A stretch of 10,233 bases of DNA from a bacterium (GTDB lineage: Bacteria > Planctomycetota > J058 > JAJDCP01): assembly GCA_030428695.1 (NCBI GenBank), contig JAUIEM010000367.1, positions 1 to 10,233 of the forward strand. The letters run 5' to 3'. Numbering within the stretch: the stretch's first letter is position 1; every line of letters begins with the position of its first letter. The notes below the pieces were generated by a model. It saw nothing but the letters and a program-made list of their open reading frames with translations, was not told where the DNA came from and ran no database searches. Shown here in pieces: positions 2,266-10,233 of this stretch. Both the position numbers and the translations under genes were made by a program.

Positions 2266-2280
2266 GGCGCTGTCAGGGAA

Positions 2281-2301
2281 TTCGGATTGTCGCCAGGCCC
2301 G
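2281..2301 (+). repeat. Left arm of 21-bp perfect inverted repeat bounding the element
   Basis: Begins TTCGGATTGTCGCC and ends GGCCCG. It is an exact reverse complement of 3044-3064 and starts 16 nt after the dehydratase stop codon. It could be the closing stem of an RNA or a terminal inverted repeat. The flanks (GGGAA before it, CCAAT after the partner) give no target-site duplication. Confidence 0.85.
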
Positions 2302-2317
2302 GGCACGCGTTCCCGCC

Positions 2318-2350
2318 GACCCACGCTCCGAGGAACGAGGAGCGGGGGTC
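2318..2350 (+). repeat. Loop-motif hairpin 1 (loop GAGGAACGA)
   Basis: GACCCACGCTCC (2318-2329) pairs with GGAGCGGGGGTC (2339-2350), giving 11 Watson-Crick pairs and one A/G mismatch, around the loop GAGGAACGA at 2330-2338. It is the first of four hairpins sharing this loop. Confidence 0.75.
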
Positions 2351-2351
2351 A

Positions 2352-2391
2352 AGGGCTGCAGGCTACACAAGAGGAGTTGGGCGGCAGCCCT
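2352..2391 (+). repeat. Stem AGGGCTGC/GCAGCCCT
   Basis: Eight perfect pairs (2352-2359 with 2384-2391) around a 24-nt loop, lying between loop-motif hairpins 1 and 2. It is less striking than its neighbours but fits a continuous chain of stems. Confidence 0.45.
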
Positions 2392-2401
2392 GTTTGCGAC
2401 A

Positions 2402-2452
2402 CCACCGCAGATCTCTTCTCCGAGGTACGAGGAGAGGAGATCGAGGAGGTGG
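2402..2452 (+). repeat. Loop-motif hairpin 2 (loop GAGGTACGA) with outer CCACC/GGTGG stem
   Basis: GATCTCTTCTCC (2410-2421) pairs with GGAGAGGAGATC (2431-2442), with one G.U pair (T2416/G2436), around the loop GAGGTACGA at 2422-2430. An outer stem CCACC (2402-2406) with GGTGG (2448-2452) encloses it across an internal loop. Confidence 0.75.
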
Positions 2453-2616
2453 CGCAATCAGGGCGATGGTCGCCCAACCTCCGACAGAGTTGTGTTCTAC
2501 ACGGTGGTCCCCCACCGGGGGACTCACAGGGGGGCATCAACAAGCCAACAAGCACCTCGTTCCCCGGGGACCGATGTGCGTTACGGCGCGAACGCGAGAA
2601 TCCGAAACGGATCTTC
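2447..2616 (+). repeat. Core repeat, copy 1 (inverted copy at 10056-10233)
   Basis: Aligned by hand with the reverse complement of the right window edge. Positions 2447-2573 match 10107-10233 at 119 of 127 positions without gaps. Six of the eight differences fall in one block (2493-2500). Similarity then weakens, with a small insertion in copy 2, up to about 2616. The core contains hairpin GGGCGA-TGG-TCGCCC (2461-2475), hairpin GTCCCCC-ACC-GGGGGAC (2507-2523), the palindrome CCCCGGGG (2562-2569) and, in the diverged part, the imperfect stem GCGAGAATCCG/CGGATCTTCGC (2594-2618). Confidence 0.9.
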
Positions 2617-2685
2617 GCTTCCGCAAGCCCGTTGGCGGCCACGATTGCCCGTTGGGGGGATGGCGTGCATGCTATTCCCCCCCTG

Positions 2686-2700
2686 CCCCCCGGTGGGGGG
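2686..2700 (+). repeat. C6-GGT-G6 hairpin
   Basis: CCCCCC, loop GGT, GGGGGG. Its sequence is nearly the reverse complement of the C5-ACC-G5 hairpin at 2509-2521, so the two can either fold locally or pair with each other. Confidence 0.6.
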
Positions 2701-2736
2701 TTCCACTTCATCAACTTGCCGGACACAACAAAGCGT

Positions 2737-2769
2737 CGGTTCCGCCCCGAGGTACGAGGGGAGGGACCG
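2737..2769 (+). repeat. Loop-motif hairpin 3 (loop GAGGTACGA)
   Basis: CGGTTCCGCCCC (2737-2748) pairs with GGGGAGGGACCG (2758-2769), with ten Watson-Crick pairs, one G.U (T2741/G2765) and one G/A mismatch. The loop is GAGGTACGA at 2749-2757, identical to that of hairpin 2. Confidence 0.75.
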
Positions 2770-2782
2770 GGAAGCGTCCGAG

Positions 2783-2811
2783 CCGGTCACCCGAGGAACG
2801 AGGGTGGCCGG
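2783..2811 (+). repeat. Loop-motif hairpin 4 (loop GAGGAACGA)
   Basis: CCGGTCACCC (2783-2792) pairs with GGGTGGCCGG (2802-2811) with one G.U (T2787/G2807). The loop is GAGGAACGA at 2793-2801, identical to hairpin 1. The stem sequences of the four hairpins are unrelated; only the loop is conserved. Confidence 0.75.
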
Positions 2812-2817
2812 AGAGGT

Positions 2818-2940
2818 GGACGCAGGTTGCCCGAAGAAAAGACCGTCCAAAGCTGGAGCCAGCTCCGGGAGGGAGCGCCAACAGGCGAGAGGTCGTCGTT
2901 GGCCCGGAGCTGTCTCCAGCTTTGGAGGGCAACCTGGTCC
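2818..2940 (+). repeat. Long composite hairpin (4 + 10 + 23 + 6 bp)
   Basis: Nested stems: GGAC/GTCC (2818-2821 with 2937-2940), CAGGTTGCCC/GGGCAACCTG (2823-2832 with 2927-2936), a 23-nt arm (2847-2869) pairing with 2903-2925 with a single mismatch, and an apical GCCAAC/GTTGGC. An A-rich 14-nt strand (2833-2846) bulges out opposite a single A. This is the most stable-looking structure in the window. Confidence 0.75.
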
Positions 2941-2965
2941 TCTGGAGCGGTTCTGTGTTGGTGTT

Positions 2966-2981
2966 GCGCCCTGCCGGGCGC
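2966..2981 (+). repeat. GCGCCC-TGCC-GGGCGC hairpin
   Basis: A perfect 6-bp stem with a tetraloop in the 3' quarter of the element, followed by the 10-bp palindrome GTGCGCGCAC (3025-3034) before the right closing arm. Confidence 0.5.
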
Positions 2982-3043
2982 CCGGACCTCCGCGTCCCGG
3001 TCGACGCCAGAAGTCTCGATCGCCGTGCGCGCACATACGCCGA

Positions 3044-3064
3044 CGGGCCTGGCGACAATCCGAA
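3044..3064 (+). repeat. Right arm of 21-bp perfect inverted repeat
   Basis: Begins CGGGCC and ends GGCGACAATCCGAA. It is an exact reverse complement of 2281-2301 and lies 73 nt from the stop of the convergent beta-helix gene. Nothing notable was seen in 3065-3137. Confidence 0.85.
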
Positions 3065-3137
3065 CCAATCTTCGTTCGATGGCCCTCGTCGCCGCTCGCT
3101 CGTCGCCCGAACACGGCCCGTACGGAGCCTCTAGGCC

Positions 3138-4538
3138 TCAGGCCACGCGACGCCGGCGCATCCACAGCAGGCCGAGCAGCAGCAACGGCGCGCTCCAGGC
3201 TCCGGCGGGGGTGCCGACGGCGCAGCTTCCGCCGCTGCCTCCGCTCGAGGCGGTCATCGGCGCGCTGTTGACCGGGGTCCCGCCCCCCGAGGGCGGGGTC
3301 GGGGGCGGGGTCGGGGTCGGAGTCGGCGTTGGCGTCGGCGTCGGGGTCGGAGTCGCCCCGTACTCGTACGCCCCCGCGTCCTCCGCGCCGGCAGGGCGGG
3401 CCGCGCCGTGGTAGTCGTCGCTGGCGGCGGTGCTGCCCATCGCGTCGACGGCCGGCGCGTTGGCGACCAGGGCGAGGTCGCCGGCGGTCGCGTTGACGAA
3501 CCACGAGGCCTGGGCGTTGGTGTGGTTGTCGCTCAGGCTCGCGGTCGCCCCGTTGCGGGCGATGATCGCGCGGTTGGTGACGTTGCCGCGGATGTCGGTG
3601 CCGGTCGTCGCGGGGAAGCGGTACTCGATCGCGTTCGGGTAGCTGTTCTCGAAGTAGATCGTGTTGTTGTAGCAGGCGGTGTTCGGCGAGTCGAAGATGC
3701 CGATCGCGACGTCGCCGGTGCTGATCGCGGACGTCCGGTGGAAGACGTTGTTGCGGATCACCCCGCCGCTGTGATCGTTGCCGGCGCTCGCGTTCACCAG
3801 GCCGAAGGCGATGCCGCGCTCACACTCCTCGAAGCGGTTGCCCTCGCAGGTCGTGTTCCCGCTGCCGCCCCACATCAGCACGGCGGGCCCGGCGAGCCCG
3901 GAGCCGGGCGCGGCGAGGATGCGGCGGAACAGGTTGTGGCGGATGATCCAGTTCTGCCCGCCGATGATGTCGATCCCGTTCGTGTAGTCGTCGCGGCAGG
4001 TGGTCGTGTACTCCATCAGCGTGTACTCGCAGATGCCGTCGTCCGTCCCGACGCCGAACTGGCCGGAGGACCCCTTGATGAACTGCTCCCCCGCGTCGAT
4101 CAGCCGGCAGTTGTAGATGTGCGGCGCGTGGCAGCCCTGCTCTCCGGCGAGCTGGATCGGATGGTAGTAGACCTCGCGGATGGTCAGGTCGGCGATCAGG
4201 ATGCCGTCGACGTCCCCGACGTGGATCCCGTGATGGATCGCGGGGTTGTTCATGCCGGCGCCGATCAGCACCACGTCGGCCGGATCGCCCGTCGCGCCGC
4301 GGATGCCGACGTTGCTCAGCCCCCCATTGATCCACAGGGTGCCGGTCAGCGAGTAGGTGCCGGACGCGATGACGATCACCTGGTTCGACTGCAGGTTCGA
4401 GACCGCGTTCTGCAGCGCCGGCTCGGTCGCGACGTGCACCTCCGTGGTGCCGGTCGGGTTCGGCAGGATGGGCGCGGCATCCCAGTCACGGGCGACGACG
4501 GCGGGTAGCAGCAACAGGAACAGCAGGCAGTGCTTCAC
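3138..4538 (-). CDS. Exported right-handed parallel beta-helix protein with Thr-Pro linker and Cys/Arg C-terminal sorting-like tail
   Basis: A 466-residue protein starting at GTG (4536-4538), with GGGAGG five nt upstream. A signal peptide is evident (MKHCLLFLLLLPAVVA, cleavage near 16). Residues 30-395 carry repeating short strands with Asn-rich turns (GIHVGDVDGILIADLTI, NWIIRHNLFRRI, GVIRNNVFHRT, ACYNNTIYFEN), typical of pectate-lyase-like or right-handed beta-helix folds, and end in DAGAYEYG, common at the end of such domains. A Thr-Pro linker follows (396-414), then a Gly/Ser stretch, Cys439, a hydrophobic segment (about 447-460) and RRRRVA. That tail resembles Cys-containing CTERM sorting signals such as MYXO-CTERM, implying surface anchoring after processing. 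No catalytic residues could be assigned, so a polysaccharide lyase, an adhesin or a structural role all remain possible. It lies 96 nt downstream of the carbonic anhydrase on the same strand and is convergent with the dehydratase. Confidence 0.85.
   Translation of the reverse strand: MKHCLLFLLLLPAVVARDWDAAPILPNPTGTTEVHVATEPALQNAVSNLQSNQVIVIASGTYSLTGTLWINGGLSNVGIRGATGDPADVVLIGAGMNNPAIHHGIHVGDVDGILIADLTIREVYYHPIQLAGEQGCHAPHIYNCRLIDAGEQFIKGSSGQFGVGTDDGICEYTLMEYTTTCRDDYTNGIDIIGGQNWIIRHNLFRRILAAPGSGLAGPAVLMWGGSGNTTCEGNRFEECERGIAFGLVNASAGNDHSGGVIRNNVFHRTSAISTGDVAIGIFDSPNTACYNNTIYFENSYPNAIEYRFPATTGTDIRGNVTNRAIIARNGATASLSDNHTNAQASWFVNATAGDLALVANAPAVDAMGSTAASDDYHGAARPAGAEDAGAYEYGATPTPTPTPTPTPTPTPPPTPPSGGGTPVNSAPMTASSGGSGGSCAVGTPAGAWSAPLLLLGLLWMRRRRVA
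3311..3352 (-). repeat. Hexanucleotide tandem repeat coding for the Thr-Pro linker
   Basis: Seven 6-nt units of the form TCGGNG on the plus strand (one unit is TTGGCG), read on the minus strand as alternating Thr and Pro codons. Third-position changes among units keep Thr-Pro unchanged, which fits protein-level selection. The number of units is likely to vary between strains. Confidence 0.8.
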
Positions 4539-4634: not shown

Positions 4635-5390
4635 TCAGAAGTTCCGCCGCACGGTCCGCCCGGCGAGGGGCTGCACGGGCCGGAAGTTGTTGCCGAGGAC
4701 GGTGCGGAACGCGGCGAGCTGCGCGTCGGACAGGGAGGCGTGCCGGTCGAGCACCACCCAGGTCACGATGCCCGAGGCCGGCGGCGTGGTCAGGGAGCCC
4801 GGGTAGGTGTAGTAGTGAGCCCCGAGGCCTTCGAGGAAGGCGCCGAGGTCGAGGAGCTCTTCGCTCTCCAGGCGGGGATCGCTCGACTTCGCCGGCGGGG
4901 CGCTGGTCAGCGGGGCGAGGAAGGGGTTCTCCGCGGCCCCCGCGTCGAACATCACCGAGACGACGAGGAGCTCCTCGGCGGAGCGGCAGACGACGTGCAT
5001 CTCGAGGTCGGCGTGCGCGCCGGCGAACTGGTGCTCACTGTACGTATGGAAGTGGAACTGCAGCACCTCCCACTCCCGGCCGTCGTAGCCGACCGTGCGA
5101 TGCTCCGGCCACTCCTGCTCGAGGGTGTGCCCGGTGTTGCACAGCGCGACCGGCGCCGCGCCGACGGCAGAGACGTCGAGGGCGGGGAGCTTCGGGTCGG
5201 AGACGAAGGAGGCGATGTCGATCGGCGAGTGGCGCTGATGGTCGCCTTCCCAGCCGGGCAGCTCGTGCCAGTGGGCGGGACCTTCGTCGCCGGAATAGCT
5301 GAACGCCCCGTTGGCTGCGTGGGCGACGCGATCGTCGCAGCCGACGAGGACAGCGCAGCCGAGGACGAGGGACAGGACGGCGGATCTCAT
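4635..5390 (-). CDS. Alpha-class carbonic anhydrase, lipoprotein
   Basis: A 251-residue zinc enzyme predicted to interconvert CO2 and bicarbonate in the cell envelope. The ATG at 5388-5390 has GGAGG six nt upstream. The frame extends 18 codons further, but that extension would push the signal peptide inward. The signal ends in LVGC with Cys18 as the lipidation site, followed by Asp19-Asp20. Alpha-class signatures are complete: SPIDI, TGHTL, QFHFHTYSEH with zinc ligands His113 and His115, the third ligand His132 in EMHVV, Glu119, YYTYPGSLTTPP with Thr201/Thr202, and NFRPVQPLAGR. The cysteine usual after LTTPP is replaced by Ala, so the canonical disulphide is absent; Cys84 and Cys135 are the only other cysteines in the mature part. 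Divergent from the kinase gene and upstream of the beta-helix gene, from which 96 nt separate it without a clear terminator. Confidence 0.95.
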   Translation of the reverse strand: MRSAVLSLVLGCAVLVGCDDRVAHAANGAFSYSGDEGPAHWHELPGWEGDHQRHSPIDIASFVSDPKLPALDVSAVGAAPVALCNTGHTLEQEWPEHRTVGYDGREWEVLQFHFHTYSEHQFAGAHADLEMHVVCRSAEELLVVSVMFDAGAAENPFLAPLTSAPPAKSSDPRLESEELLDLGAFLEGLGAHYYTYPGSLTTPPASGIVTWVVLDRHASLSDAQLAAFRTVLGNNFRPVQPLAGRTVRRNF

Positions 5391-5516
5391 GGCGTTCCTC
5401 CACGGATGGTGGAAGAAGGGTAGCGGAAGCCTGTCCGGGCGCAAGCCCTACCCCGTGTCCGATCCGGGCACGGCGGCGGAGCTTCCCGTACACTTCCCCA
5501 GAAGGAGTGCGTCCCG
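5391..5516. promoter_or_regulatory. Divergent intergenic region between carbonic anhydrase and kinase genes
   Basis: This 126-nt gap must hold both start regions. It contains the kinase ribosome binding site AAGGAG (5502-5507) and an inverted repeat GGGTAG (5418-5423) / CTACCC (5448-5453) with a 24-nt spacer. The repeat could be an operator or chance. No convincing -35/-10 pair was recognised for either direction. Confidence 0.35.
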
Positions 5517-7316
5517 ATGAGCGAAGACGAGGTGCCGACAGAGCTGAGCTTCCGCGGCGTGCTCCCTCGGGCCTCCGCGTTGCAGAGCGGCCTGTCGACG
5601 ATCCGCCCGCAGCGGGGAGACGACCGCAGCCTCGACAGCCTGCCGACCCTGACCCTGCGCAACGAGGGGGCTCCGAAACCCTACCTCGAGCTGCTCGGGG
5701 AGCTCGGGGAAGGGGGCACCGCGGTCGTCCACCTCGCCGAGCAGATCCCCCTCGGCCGCCGGGTCGCCGTCAAGAGCCTGAAGACGGACGGACAGAGCGT
5801 CGCGCTCCTGCACGAGGCGCGCATCACGGGCCGGCTCGAGCACCCCAACGTCGTCCCGGTGTACACCCTCGGCCAGAACGCCGACGGCGTCCCGATGCTG
5901 GTGATGAAGCGGGTGGAAGGCCGCTCCTGGCGGGCGCAGCTGGTCGCCGACTGGCGCGAGGGCGGGCTGCCGGTGCCCGCGCTGCGGCGCCACGTCGAGA
6001 TCCTGATGCAGGTGTGCAACGCGGTCTCCTTCGCGCACAGCAAGGGCGTCGTCCACCGGGACCTCAAGCCCGAGAACGTGATGCTCGGCGCCTTCGGCGA
6101 GGTCTACGTCCTCGACTGGGGCATCGCCGTCGCGACCGAGGACGGACCCCGCGTGTTGCACGCCGACGAGCTGGCCGGCACGCCTGCCTACATGGCGCCG
6201 GAGATGGCGTCCGGTGAGCTGGCGGCGATCGGTCCGCACACCGACGTCTACCTGCTCGGCGCGATCCTCCACGAGCTGCTTGTCGGCGCGCCGCGGCACA
6301 CCGGCCGCGGCCTGGGTGAGATCATCGCGAGCGTGCTCTCCTCGCGTGTCTTCTCCTACCCGGCCACCGTCCCCGCCGAGCTGGTCGCGGTCTGCCTGCG
6401 GGCGACGGCCTTCCGTCCCGCGCAGCGCTTCCCGAGCGTCGAGGCCCTGCGCGAAGCGCTCGGCGCCTACCTCTCCCACGCCTCCTCCCGGGCCCTCGCC
6501 CACGAGGCCGAGCAGCGCATCGCCGCGGTCGAGGCAGGGGAAGCGGACCGCGAGCGCATCGCCGAGTGCCGCTTCGCCGTGCGCCTCGCCCTGCAGGAGT
6601 GGCCGGAGAACCCGGAGGCTCTCGCCTGCGCGCAGCGCCTGCAGCTCGCCCTCGCCCGGCGGGAGATCGCGCGGGGCGAGCTCGCGGCCGCCGAGGAGCT
6701 GCTCGCCGATGTCGACGCGCCGGAGGACCTGCTCGCGGCGCTCGAGGAGCTGCGGGCGCGGCGGGTCGCGGAGCGCCGCGAGCTCGCGCGGTTGCAGCGC
6801 CTCGAGTTCGACAGCGACCTCGACGTCGGCAGCCGCTGGCGGGCGACGGTCGTGCTGGTGCTCGCGTGCGGCTTCGCGCTGATCCCGATCGTCGCCTGGT
6901 GGGGGATGAACGAAGGCTGGTACCCGCCGCCGGAGGGGGAGATCGTGATCCTGCCGGTGTTCGCGGCCCTGTTCTTCGCGGCCGCGGCCTGGTGGAAGCG
7001 CGCGATCTTCCTGCGCAACGCGGCGAACCGCCGGCTGGTCGCCTGCCTGATCGCGACCTTCGCCTGCCTGCTCCTGCACCGCCTGATCGCCCTGCGCCAC
7101 GGCGTGCCGGTGCGCGAGATCTTCGGCCAGGAGGTCTCGGTGCTGTTCGCGATCGCGACGACGATGACGATCTGCCTCGACCGCCGGCTGGTGTGGTCGG
7201 CGCTGTGCTTCTTCGTCAGCGGCGTGGTGATCGCCCTCTGGCCCGCCGCCTCGATGCCCGCTCTCGGCCTGGGGGTCGGGGCGGCGCTGTTCTCGATGTG
7301 GAAGGTCTGGCGGTAG
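5517..7316 (+). CDS. Hanks-type Ser/Thr protein kinase with DWG motif, helical middle and six-helix membrane tail
   Basis: A 599-residue membrane kinase. The ATG at 5517 has AAGGAG nine nt upstream. After a 55-residue polar leader, the kinase domain runs about 56-320: Gly loop GELGEGGTAV (61-70), VAVK with Lys86, a candidate alpha-C glutamate Glu100, catalytic loop HRDLKPEN (180-187) with Asp182, Asp200 in DWG (in place of DFG), and GTPAYMAPE (221-229). All residues needed for catalysis are present, so it is probably active. Residues 325-435 are Glu/Arg/Leu-rich helices, possibly coiled-coil or TPR-like. Six hydrophobic segments follow near 441-463, 475-493, 506-526, 538-554, 559-575 and 580-597. 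There is no PASTA or other extracellular sensor domain; the membrane bundle itself may sense or anchor. It is divergent from the carbonic anhydrase and convergent with the lipoprotein gene. Targets are unknown. Confidence 0.92.
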   Translation: MSEDEVPTELSFRGVLPRASALQSGLSTIRPQRGDDRSLDSLPTLTLRNEGAPKPYLELLGELGEGGTAVVHLAEQIPLGRRVAVKSLKTDGQSVALLHEARITGRLEHPNVVPVYTLGQNADGVPMLVMKRVEGRSWRAQLVADWREGGLPVPALRRHVEILMQVCNAVSFAHSKGVVHRDLKPENVMLGAFGEVYVLDWGIAVATEDGPRVLHADELAGTPAYMAPEMASGELAAIGPHTDVYLLGAILHELLVGAPRHTGRGLGEIIASVLSSRVFSYPATVPAELVAVCLRATAFRPAQRFPSVEALREALGAYLSHASSRALAHEAEQRIAAVEAGEADRERIAECRFAVRLALQEWPENPEALACAQRLQLALARREIARGELAAAEELLADVDAPEDLLAALEELRARRVAERRELARLQRLEFDSDLDVGSRWRATVVLVLACGFALIPIVAWWGMNEGWYPPPEGEIVILPVFAALFFAAAAWWKRAIFLRNAANRRLVACLIATFACLLLHRLIALRHGVPVREIFGQEVSVLFAIATTMTICLDRRLVWSALCFFVSGVVIALWPAASMPALGLGVGAALFSMWKVWR

Positions 7317-7368: not shown

Positions 7369-9357
7369 TCAGAACATCCCGTGCGCCCGCCCGAACCAGT
7401 ACGGCAGCAGCAGGTCCAGCCCCGGCGCCTGGAAGGTGTCCGGCCAGGTGCCGTCGAGGTCGAAGGGCGAGCGCTGCCACAGGTAGTCCGCGTAGCGCCG
7501 CCGCTCGACGGGCAGGGGCACGGCCGCGATGATCTCCGGCGGCTTGCTCGGGTCGAGGAAGTGGAACAGCGTCTGGGGAATCTGCGGATCGAGACTGTTG
7601 GCGACCGCGTAGCCCCTCCGCGGGCGCGCGGCCCAGCGCTGCAGGCCGGTCTCGACCTCCGGGCCGAGCGCGGTCGCCGCGGGCGGGACCGCCATCGCGT
7701 AGACCGCGTCGAACCAGGCGTTCTGGTGGTGGGCGAGGGCGGCGCGCTCGAGGCGCAGGATCTTCAGGTACTCGCGGTAGCGGTCCGGGTCGGTCTCGAC
7801 CTCGCACAGGTTGACGAGGTTGTCGTGCAGGAGGTTGAACTTGTAGTACTCCTCGTGCGTGTTCAGGGTCCCGAACCAGGCGGGGAACCAGGCGACCGCG
7901 AGCAGCGGCGCCCAGGCGTCGAATTCCCCGCCCCAGCGCGTTGGCAGGGCGCGCTTGCCGTTCTGCAACAGGGCGAGCATCGCGAGGGGGTTCTGGGCGA
8001 AGCTCGCGGACAGCGTGATGCCGTCGTTCTCGAAGGCGCTCCAGCCGGAGACATGCAGGTACGTGAGCAGGCGGTCGATCAGGCCGGCGGCGCGGCCCTC
8101 GAGGGCGGGGAAGGCCTCGAGCACCCGGCCGAGGCCGAGCACCACGCCGATGTACTGGTCGCGCGAGACGTCGTCGAGGCCGATGTAGCTGCCGCCGGGC
8201 AGGGTCGCGACGAACATCCGCGGGTCGTTGTAGAGCGGCGCCGCGTAGGGCGAGGCGAGGGGAAAGGCGACGCGCGAGAGCTGGCCCTGGGGCGAGACGT
8301 CCAGGCAGCGGGTCAGCGCCGTCAGGATCTCGTCCGCCCGCGCCTCGAGGGCCGGGTCGGGGGCGACCTTGGCGCGGTAGGCGAGGGCGGCGAGGAAGTG
8401 GCCGGTCCAGAAGGCCGAGTCCCCCTGGCCCCAGTAGGCCTGCACGTTGCCGCTGCCGTAGGCGGGGTCGTCGAGGTTCGCCTCGAAGACCATGCCGGCG
8501 AAGAAGTTGTCGCGCAGCAGCGCGGTCTCGACCGCGACGGCCAGGGACTCGAGGTCGACCCGCGGGCCGGTGAAGGGCGTCGGGTTTCCGCCGAGGCCCA
8601 GGGCCGGTCCGGGGGAAGCGGAGAGCGCGCCGAGCTGCGCGGTCAGGTCGACGACCAGCGCGTCGAGCTCGTCGCGGACGAAGGCGTCGAGCAGCGGGCG
8701 CACGGTGCTGAGCAGGGGCCCGGCGAGGAAGTGGCTCGAGCTGACGTCGAGCTGGAGGGCGATCTGCGGCGCGCCGAAGTGCAGGATGGCGGGGCGCAAC
8801 GGGTCGCTGGTGTCGACCTCGACGCTCTGCTCGACGCGCAGGCCGCGGATCGCGACCGCCACGTCGATGGTCTGGGTGATCGTCGCCGAGCCGCCGAACA
8901 GCGAGGCGTCCAGGCCGACCTCCAGGTCGAGCTCCCAGCCCGTGGGAGCGGCGGGCAGGGCGAGGCTGAGCCGCTCGCTGGCGCCGCTGGAGGCCGAGAA
9001 GGCGGGCGGGTCGGCGAGGGTGTGTCCGGTGAGGGTGACGCTGCCGACCGCGAAGCCCGAGCCCCCCTTGCCGACCATGCCCTGCAGCTTCTCGTCGAGC
9101 AGGCCGCCGAGGTAGTCGCTCAGGCGCGGCCAGGAGCGCACGATCGAGGCGTTCCACAGGGCGACCGCCGCGCTGTCGGCGCGCAGGGCCTCGGGCTGCG
9201 GGGCGGCGGCCAGGGCCGCGAGCGCCGCCTGCCAGTGGGCGGGCTGGGCGGGAGCGCTCGACGCGGGCGTGGCGGAGCTTCCGCCGGAGCTTCCGCCGGA
9301 GTCCTGGCAGCCGAGGCAGAGCAGCAGGCACAGGGGAAGGGCGAGGGCGCGGTTCAT
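7369..9357 (-). CDS. Large lipoprotein: possible lipid-binding (TULIP-like) N-terminal half plus alpha/alpha-toroid-like C-terminal half
   Basis: A 662-residue protein of no recognised named family. The ATG at 9355-9357 overlaps the repressor stop as ATGA, with GGAGGA upstream. The signal MNRALALPLCLLLCLG ends at lipobox Cys17, followed by a low-complexity Gly/Ser/Ala/Pro linker. Residues about 75-245 alternate amphipathic strands (FAVGSVTLTGHTL, LSLALPA, WELDLEVGLDASLFGG, IDVAVAIRGLRV, IALQLDVSSSHF) with a terminal amphipathic helix (LLSTVRPLLDAFVRDELDALV), which resembles BPI/TULIP-type lipid-binding folds; this is a fold guess, not a family match. Residues about 265-660 are helical with aromatic- and Asp-rich turns (VQAYWGQGDSAFWTGHFLAAL, GSYIGLDDVSRDQYIGVVLGL, HEEYYKFNLLHDNLVNL), as in alpha/alpha toroids of glycosidases or terpenoid cyclases. 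Coupling to a PsrA-like repressor favours a lipid- or envelope-related role. Confidence 0.8.
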   Translation of the reverse strand: MNRALALPLCLLLCLGCQDSGGSSGGSSATPASSAPAQPAHWQAALAALAAAPQPEALRADSAAVALWNASIVRSWPRLSDYLGGLLDEKLQGMVGKGGSGFAVGSVTLTGHTLADPPAFSASSGASERLSLALPAAPTGWELDLEVGLDASLFGGSATITQTIDVAVAIRGLRVEQSVEVDTSDPLRPAILHFGAPQIALQLDVSSSHFLAGPLLSTVRPLLDAFVRDELDALVVDLTAQLGALSASPGPALGLGGNPTPFTGPRVDLESLAVAVETALLRDNFFAGMVFEANLDDPAYGSGNVQAYWGQGDSAFWTGHFLAALAYRAKVAPDPALEARADEILTALTRCLDVSPQGQLSRVAFPLASPYAAPLYNDPRMFVATLPGGSYIGLDDVSRDQYIGVVLGLGRVLEAFPALEGRAAGLIDRLLTYLHVSGWSAFENDGITLSASFAQNPLAMLALLQNGKRALPTRWGGEFDAWAPLLAVAWFPAWFGTLNTHEEYYKFNLLHDNLVNLCEVETDPDRYREYLKILRLERAALAHHQNAWFDAVYAMAVPPAATALGPEVETGLQRWAARPRRGYAVANSLDPQIPQTLFHFLDPSKPPEIIAAVPLPVERRRYADYLWQRSPFDLDGTWPDTFQAPGLDLLLPYWFGRAHGMF
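9274..9297 (-). repeat. Two tandem 12-bp units coding for Gly-Gly-Ser-Ser linker
   Basis: GGAGCTTCCGCC occurs twice in a row on the plus strand. On the minus strand it encodes the Gly/Ser linker just after the lipidated cysteine of the large lipoprotein. It is a simple linker duplication. Confidence 0.7.
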
Positions 9358-9983
9358 GTCGGTTCCTCCGGAAATCTCTCGCCGGCGCGCAGCCCCGCGG
9401 CGCCGAAGTCGACCAGGCGGGCGAGCATGGTCTCGTCGTCGTCGCGGTCGACGCGGCCGCCGGACAGGAGCGGGACCTCCTGCCAGCTGGTCCAGCTGAA
9501 GTGCAGGGCGCCGACGATGAAGTGCACCCGCCAGTAGAGCTCCCGGGTGGAGGCCTGGGGAAGGGCGCGCGGCAAGGTCTGGCGCAGGGTGGTGATCAGG
9601 GTCTCGAAGGCGGTGTCGCGGTAGATCAGCGCGCGGGTCTCGTCGGACTCGACCTGCATGCGGCCGAGCAGGCGCATGAAGTCGGGATGCTCGCGGAACA
9701 TCCCGAAGGCCGGCCGCAGGAAGGCGCGCAGGATCTCCTCGAGACTCGGTGTCTCGGCCCGCTCGGCGAGCGCGCGCAGGCCCTCGATGCGGGCGGCGTT
9801 GAGCGGGCGCATGCGGCGGGCGCACACGGCCTGCAGGAGCGCGTGCTTGTTCCCGAAGTGGTAGTGGATCGCGGCGGTGTTCGCGCCGGCCGCGCCGGTG
9901 ATCTCGCGCACGGTGCTCGCGAGGCCGCGCTCGGCGAAGAGGCGCTCGGCGGCGTCCATCAGGGCGGTGCGGGTGTCGGACAT
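9354..9983 (-). CDS. TetR/AcrR-family transcriptional repressor, PsrA-like
   Basis: A 209-residue DNA-binding regulator. ATG at 9981-9983 (MSDTRTALMDAAERLF) was chosen over the upstream in-frame ATG at 10028: GGAG precedes it, its N-terminus matches the family, and the upstream start would lie within the operator region. The N-terminal TetR domain (about 4-50) contains the helix-turn-helix TVREITGAAGANTAAIHYHFGNK. The ligand domain has PDFMRLLGRM and ELYWRVHFIVGALHFS, which resembles the C-terminal domain of Pseudomonas PsrA, a fatty-acid-responsive regulator. A CAAAC-N4-GTTTC site, matching the published PsrA-type consensus as I remember it, lies in its own promoter region. It overlaps the lipoprotein start by 4 nt (ATGA), so that gene is the likely co-regulated target along with the repressor itself. 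The natural ligand is probably a lipid or acyl-CoA, by inference only. Confidence 0.92.
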   Translation of the reverse strand: MSDTRTALMDAAERLFAERGLASTVREITGAAGANTAAIHYHFGNKHALLQAVCARRMRPLNAARIEGLRALAERAETPSLEEILRAFLRPAFGMFREHPDFMRLLGRMQVESDETRALIYRDTAFETLITTLRQTLPRALPQASTRELYWRVHFIVGALHFSWTSWQEVPLLSGGRVDRDDDETMLARLVDFGAAGLRAGERFPEEPT

Positions 9984-10014
9984 CGGGCGCTCCGGGGGTA
10001 TCGCTCTGCCGTGC

Positions 10015-10055
10015 AGTGTATCAAACAAACGCTTGTTTCAAACGTTTGTTTTGAT
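10015..10055 (-). promoter_or_regulatory. tetR promoter with overlapping PsrA-type operators
   Basis: Read on the minus strand there is TTGAAA (10036-10041) and TACACT (10015-10020) with a 15-nt spacer, a plausible but short-spaced sigma70-type promoter about 30 nt upstream of the repressor ATG. Overlapping it are CAAAC-N4-GTTTC (10026-10039), the perfect palindrome CAAACGTTTG (10039-10048) and a larger inverted repeat ATCAAACAAACG (10020-10031) with CGTTTGTTTTGAT (10043-10055, one extra T). Position and symmetry imply autorepression by the TetR protein. Confidence 0.7.
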
Positions 10056-10233
10056 CGAAGATGTCGATGGGATTCTTGCGTTCGGGGCAAGTACCGCGAC
10101 GCATACCGGTCCCCGGGGAACGAGGTGTTTGTTGGCTTGTTGATGCCCCCCTGTGAGTCCCCCGGTGGGGGACCACCGTTTCGCGTGCAACACTGTCGGA
10201 GGTTGGGCGACCATCGCCCTGATTGCGCCACCT
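10056..10233 (-). repeat. Core repeat, copy 2 (inverted relative to 2447-2616, runs off the right edge)
   Basis: The reverse complement matches 2447-2573 at 119 of 127 positions (10107-10233). It then matches loosely, with a short insertion, to about 10056, directly against the operator of the repressor gene. The GGGCGA-TGG-TCGCCC and GTCCCCC-ACC-GGGGGAC hairpins and the CCTCGTTCCCCGGGG segment are all preserved. Everything corresponding to 2617-3064 of copy 1 is missing, so this copy is truncated or the module is shorter here. Its 5' part lies beyond the window. Confidence 0.9.

Follow-up and report, generated by a model that had tools for sequence, protein, structure and literature searches.

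Bacterial MITEs, among them Correia/NEMIS, RUP, the enterobacterial RU and the Rickettsia palindromic elements, are presented in the parts of two accounts used here (PMC2229807, PMC2759123) as repeats with inverted ends and no gene of their own, dispersed through intergenic DNA and giving folded transcripts. The same parts describe them as shorter than 200 bp, in most cases rich in A+T, and as having 5'-TA ends and target-site duplications; several contain open frames capable of fusing with genes, and their RNA structures act on neighboring transcripts (PMC2229807, PMC2759123). The element that we describe here, found in a 10,233-nt stretch of DNA that was analyzed as a whole and that we call the window, resembles these MITEs in its inverted ends, its intergenic and dispersed placement, its lack of a gene of its own and its predicted folded transcript. 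It differs from them, as portrayed in those parts, in its length of 784 nt, a GC content of 66%, a TTCGG start, the absence of a duplication and three open frames on the + strand.

A second point of comparison is provided by the large, ornate bacterial RNAs GOLLD, ROOL and OLE. In the portion of PMC12286853 drawn on here, GOLLD members are often longer than 800 nt, and kissing loops join chains in all three families. Measured against that portion, our element falls in the same size class and has many arms and conserved hairpin loops that would be suited to kissing. It differs in having no Rfam match at gathering score, in lying in a window without a tRNA and in the absence of any annotated phage family among the window proteins scanned. 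REP/BIME palindromic repeats, a third group, are short hairpins in the intergenic DNA of one genome. The element likewise contains short hairpins and is intergenic, but its outer inverted repeats are long and its interior is complex, and the window contains no stand-alone unit.

Ends, setting and fold of the element

The element occupies positions 2281-3064 of the + strand, as delimited by its bounding inverted repeats. The left terminal inverted repeat (2281-2301, +), which may also be the 5' side of a closing stem, is complementary at 21/21 positions to the right one (3044-3064, -), the possible 3' side, and 742 nt separate the two arms. These ends are of the TTCGGATTGTCGCC type. When the 21-bp arm was searched for with up to three mismatches, two places were found in the window, both of them element ends, against a mean of 0.01 matches in 200 shuffles. 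An initial annotation had described perfect 21-bp inverted repeats around a stretch between convergent genes, with neither a target-site duplication nor a transposase, and all of this is borne out: the repeats are exact, the upstream PALP-fold enzyme gene (+) has its 3' end at 2265, the downstream ORF on the - strand, which has a sub-cut-off beta-helix match, ends at 3138, no direct repeat adjoins the ends at 2281 and 3064, and no transposase is present among the protein families matched in the window. Some transposase families leave no target-site duplication. The GC content of the window is 72%, against the 66% of the element.

The whole + strand of the element folds at -452.9 kcal/mol, compared with -358.7 +/- 8.6 for 20 shuffles (z -10.9), and the - strand at -433.6 compared with -347.2 +/- 9.8 (20 shuffles), so the initial claim of folding beyond what GC-rich DNA would lead one to expect holds for both strands. 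The preference between the strands does not exceed what composition gives, with 17 G-T pairs on each strand and DNA energies of -236.5 and -233.5. The strongest local structures lie at 2373-2486 (z -9.6) and 2823-2938 (z -8.0; 200 shuffles each), whereas 2481-2588 alone is ordinary (z -1.55), with 18/200 shuffles folding equally well. The "continuous series of stems" that had been proposed is therefore slightly overstated.

Shared hairpin loops and missing stop trinucleotides

Four hairpins of the + strand have CCGAGGWACGAGG in common, at 2328, 2420, 2747 and 2791. Hairpin A (2318-2350) presents the loop GAGGAACGA at 2330-2338 and hairpin D (2737-2769) the loop GAGGTACGA at 2749-2757, each with 11/12 arm positions paired; hairpin E (2783-2811), with GAGGAACGA at 2793-2801, pairs at 10 arm positions; and the long arm B (2373-2482) carries a hairpin loop GAGGTACGA at 2422-2430, where 12/12 loop-adjoining arm positions pair. 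A further long hairpin, F (2823-2938, +), has arms at 2843-2869 and 2903-2929 that are 93% complementary. At arm positions 3-9 of the four loop hairpins, 26/28 positions pair within their own arms versus 47/84 when the arms are swapped. Because the stems differ yet still pair, it is the hairpin that appears to be kept, not merely the word. Units A and B are alike beyond the loop as well (31/42 positions). Two sheared G-A pairs flanking GGWAC, as in kink-loops, would be one possible reading of the loop. All 4 matches to GAGGWACGA in the window fall within the element, and no stand-alone hairpin unit occurs elsewhere in this window; the loop word is otherwise present only as two GGGGAACGA variants, one in the core that the element shares with a second copy (see below) and one in that copy.

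The segment at 2555-2567 (+) matches the complement of the hairpin motif at 12/13 positions, as good a match being reached in 1/1500 shuffles, and is unchanged in copy 2. Since it is both nearly complementary to the motif and identical in the two copies, the loops of A and E could dock there; this possible receptor, proposed from sequence, was noticed after the fact.

A second property of the + strand is that it is free of stop trinucleotides in all three frames from 2266 to 3131, with flanking stops at 2263 and 3132. Within the element, TAA, TAG and TGA occur 0 times where 12.7 are expected; 0/10,000 dinucleotide shuffles reach zero, the minimum being 2. When the predicted pairs, the ends and the loop motifs are preserved in the shuffling, 17.3 stops are expected, and none of 20,000 shuffles has fewer than 4. 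The - strand is ordinary, with 11 stop trinucleotides versus 12.2 expected. Among the 64 trinucleotides, TGA ranks 1st in under-representation, TAG 4th and TAA 8th, and the most stop-depleted of 386 sliding windows over both strands of the contig is the + strand window inside and just after the element. The p-values are optimistic, because the stop test was chosen after the translation had been seen. Copy 2 likewise has 0 stop trinucleotides, though against an expectation of just 2, and 7% of its shuffles are equally stop-free.

These open frames do not look like genes. GC3 is 0.64-0.70 in the element frames versus 0.96 in four neighboring genes; with no frame at host-like GC3, the element is not an ordinary gene. 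No Pfam family was found in the three + and three - frames of the element or in pieces of them, and the + frame-1 translation has no protein match at E <= 0.001 among 3835 candidates. We reject a protein-coding reading on the missing Pfam families together with the missing GC3 signal.

A partial second copy and searches for relatives

Comparison of the element with its own window uncovered a second copy at 10056-10233 (-), which is partial and runs off the contig end; the window is the entire contig, since the protein database lists 10233 as the longest contig of a protein of the window. It matches element positions 167-337 with 152/178 positions identical and 7 gap positions, and the core common to both copies (2447-2617, +; 85% identity over 178 aligned positions) differs between them in clusters: 14 differences in 142 columns, a clustering with p ~0.0003 when judged by the two longest runs without a difference and 0.001 when judged by the 13 nt richest in differences. 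Copy 2 lies upstream of a tetR gene, in surroundings unrelated to those of copy 1. Its similarity ends one-sidedly near element position 337, fading ~30 nt before the tetR ORF, and its left end is beyond the end of the contig. The right half and right end of the element are missing from it, and copy 2 is thus without a closing stem. Taken alone, the core folds at chance level (z -1.55 in copy 1, -0.51 in copy 2) and into structures that differ, and a fold common to the two copies, computed from two sequences only, has 52 pairs, of which 1 is changed on both sides. The initial annotation had taken an absence of further copies and of covarying pairs, or a match to a known Rfam family, as grounds for rejection; one partial copy is present in the window itself, no Rfam family matches at gathering score, and on covariation the two sequences give the one doubly changed pair in 52. 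Two copies within a 10.2-kb contig suggest a high genomic copy number.

None of the Rfam families attains its gathering score anywhere in the window, which agrees with the earlier statement that no known RNA family was recognizable; the highest-ranking match below threshold has E 0.11 and 23.9 bits, compared with a gathering score of 100. As further candidates, attC sites, CsrA-binding RNAs and group II introns were considered and set aside, with no Rfam match. Between 2200 and 3200, no sigma-70-like promoter was found, and there are two weak terminator-like sites versus 0.6 expected.

Searches of plasmids and phages gave no relatives of the element at E <= 0.01. A 17-mer of the core occurs in 19 viral stretches, none of which resembles the element further (best E 0.17 over L001-L062), and a 17-mer of the terminal inverted repeat in 1 viral stretch, also without further similarity. 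In genomes, whole-element searches gave matches in 0/6, 6/377, 3/140, 0/144 and 3/146 genomes, the 3/140 being the same three places as among the 6/377; the fetched places, when realigned to the element, show short, scattered matches only. The core was found in 0/192 genomes and a 32-position core pattern in 0 stretches of genome contigs, while a two-hairpin pattern matched in 1/377 genomes, where the DNA did not align to the element. The genome samples overlap and were taken through six loci, and 2-4 candidate places were scored per genome among those listed (up to 38 in the 6-genome search). With so few places scored per genome and an uncertain host group, the absence of relatives is weak evidence. 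The exact 13-mer CGAGGAACGAG occurs in 8 papers, none of them on such an element, judged by titles and abstracts. As far as these searches of Rfam, plasmids, phages, sampled genomes and one sequence word in the literature go, the repeat is undescribed.

The loop itself is found more widely. Viral contigs commonly contain CGAGGWACGAG (twice in each of 43 stretches), often as other repeats, and such sites are only partly hairpin-forming (2.37/5 arm positions pair versus 1.83 with shuffled arms, 59 distinct sites). The hairpin GTCC-GAGGWACGA-GGAC occurs in 40 viral stretches, versus 2 with the loop scrambled and 0 with the stem broken; many of the 40 belong to near-identical families. These matches hint at a recurrent hairpin loop and not at homology. 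We note that this hairpin appears in several unrelated-looking viral contexts (L085, L099, L105, L110 and others).

A proposed mobile repeat weighed against its alternatives

The initial annotation had left three options side by side, an RNA gene, a BIME-like repeat and a mobile element, and had overlooked the partial copy, the recurring hairpin loop and the absence of stops from the + strand. The dispersed second copy moves weight away from a single RNA gene toward a repeat or a mobile element; two copies in 10 kb, one of them one-sided, favor mobility, and the strand-specific avoidance of stops together with fixed loops on varied stems favors a role for the RNA. Our best explanation, in which we place about as much belief as doubt, is a dispersed, MITE-like, non-autonomous mobile repeat that is bounded by terminal inverted repeats and whose + strand forms a structured, stop-free RNA. 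The 21-bp repeats would be the ends recognized in trans by the product of a transposase gene located elsewhere, with copies settling in intergenic DNA, as the two observed locations, between convergent genes and upstream of tetR, show. Transcribed from neighboring genes, the + strand is predicted to fold into a multi-arm RNA closed by its paired ends and studded with the four hairpins of one conserved loop. The stop-free + frames may let ribosomes run through this RNA, which may in turn act in cis on the processing or stability of neighboring transcripts, by analogy with what is reported for Correia/NEMIS. Mobility, transposase, transcription and effect on neighbors are all things that we infer. 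In favor of the mobile repeat are the exact ends, the partial copy elsewhere, the one-sided end of similarity in copy 2, the lack of a gene-like frame, the GC content below that of the window and the precedent of published bacterial MITEs with inverted ends, folded transcripts and open frames. Against it, there is no target-site duplication, no transposase among the protein families of the window and no second pair of ends, the length of 784 nt far exceeds the 200 bp limit of published repeats of this kind, the 17-mer of the terminal inverted repeat led to one viral stretch without further similarity, no mobile relative appeared in the plasmids and phages searched, and the differences between the copies are clustered, unlike neutral decay. 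Should the element prove mobile, it would represent a MITE-like family of unusual length and high GC content that does not duplicate its target and has one strand cleared of stops in every frame, and the adaptation of bacterial repeats to transcription and translation would become directly testable.

Somewhat unlikely, though the strongest competitor, is a multicopy family of genes encoding a large structured RNA, modeled on GOLLD, ROOL and OLE, in which the 21-bp repeats would form the closing stem, the arms would carry a conserved loop and loops A and E would dock at 2555-2567 within or between molecules. The fold of the whole element (z -10.9), the one loop on four differing stems, the receptor-like segment kept in both copies, the loss of stops from one strand only and the clustering of inter-copy differences are all consistent with such a gene. 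However, copy 2 lacks the right half and with it the closing stem, the core alone folds at chance level and differently in the two copies, 1/52 pairs changes on both sides, and fold energy shows no strand preference; nor does this gene have a promoter of the sigma-70-like kind searched for or an Rfam match. If correct, it would add a large RNA with many arms that Rfam does not cover, and with it a ready hypothesis of how loop and receptor interact. We are more doubtful still of a broader proposal, a new class of structured RNA elements, both large and mobile, in which transposon ends would double as closing stem, conserved GAGGWACGA loops, possibly tandem G-A and kink-loop-like, would dock with an internal receptor within or between molecules, and stops would have been purged in three frames for ribosome passage.

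Improbable in our judgment is a mosaic in which smaller REP/BIME-like palindromic units, each spreading separately, came together between convergent genes. Four copies of one hairpin unit in the element, the likeness of A and B beyond the loop and the partial content of copy 2 would fit such a mosaic, but every GAGGWACGA match of the window lies in the element, no unit stands alone, and the exact outer ends go unexplained. Accidental symmetry in GC-rich intergenic DNA, where stems form easily and features are noticed after the fact, is scarcely credible, because inverted repeat, fold, loop motif, stop depletion and copy 2 each exceed shuffles or cannot be accidental, and the second copy refutes it.

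The remaining genes of the window are varied. The regulator next to copy 2 (9354-10060, -) belongs to the TetR family, with its best score, 105.7 bits, for PsrA, below the cut-off of 300, and a palindrome-like AAACAAACG...CGTTTGTTT stretch lies between its gene and copy 2. The gene at 7372-9357 (-) encodes a predicted 662-aa protein with no Pfam or NCBIfam match; apart from the protein itself, the 7996 candidates scored include one relative (38%) at E <= 1e-5. A protein kinase (5517-7313, +; PF00069, 114.8 bits) has a hydrophobic C-terminal part, which looks membrane-bound, and 4638-5399 (-) encodes a eukaryotic-type (alpha) carbonic anhydrase (Pfam PF00194, 119 bits). The product of 3141-4538 (-) looks secreted; it contains a Thr-Pro repeat, and its tail matches MYXO-CTERM close to the cut-off (15.4 bits, cut-off 20). 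This tail, like the decarboxylase match given next, hints at Myxococcota as the host phylum, but the 662-aa protein offers just its one other relative at 38%. The best database match of the decarboxylase of the window, at 72%, is in a MAG named Haliangiales bacterium.
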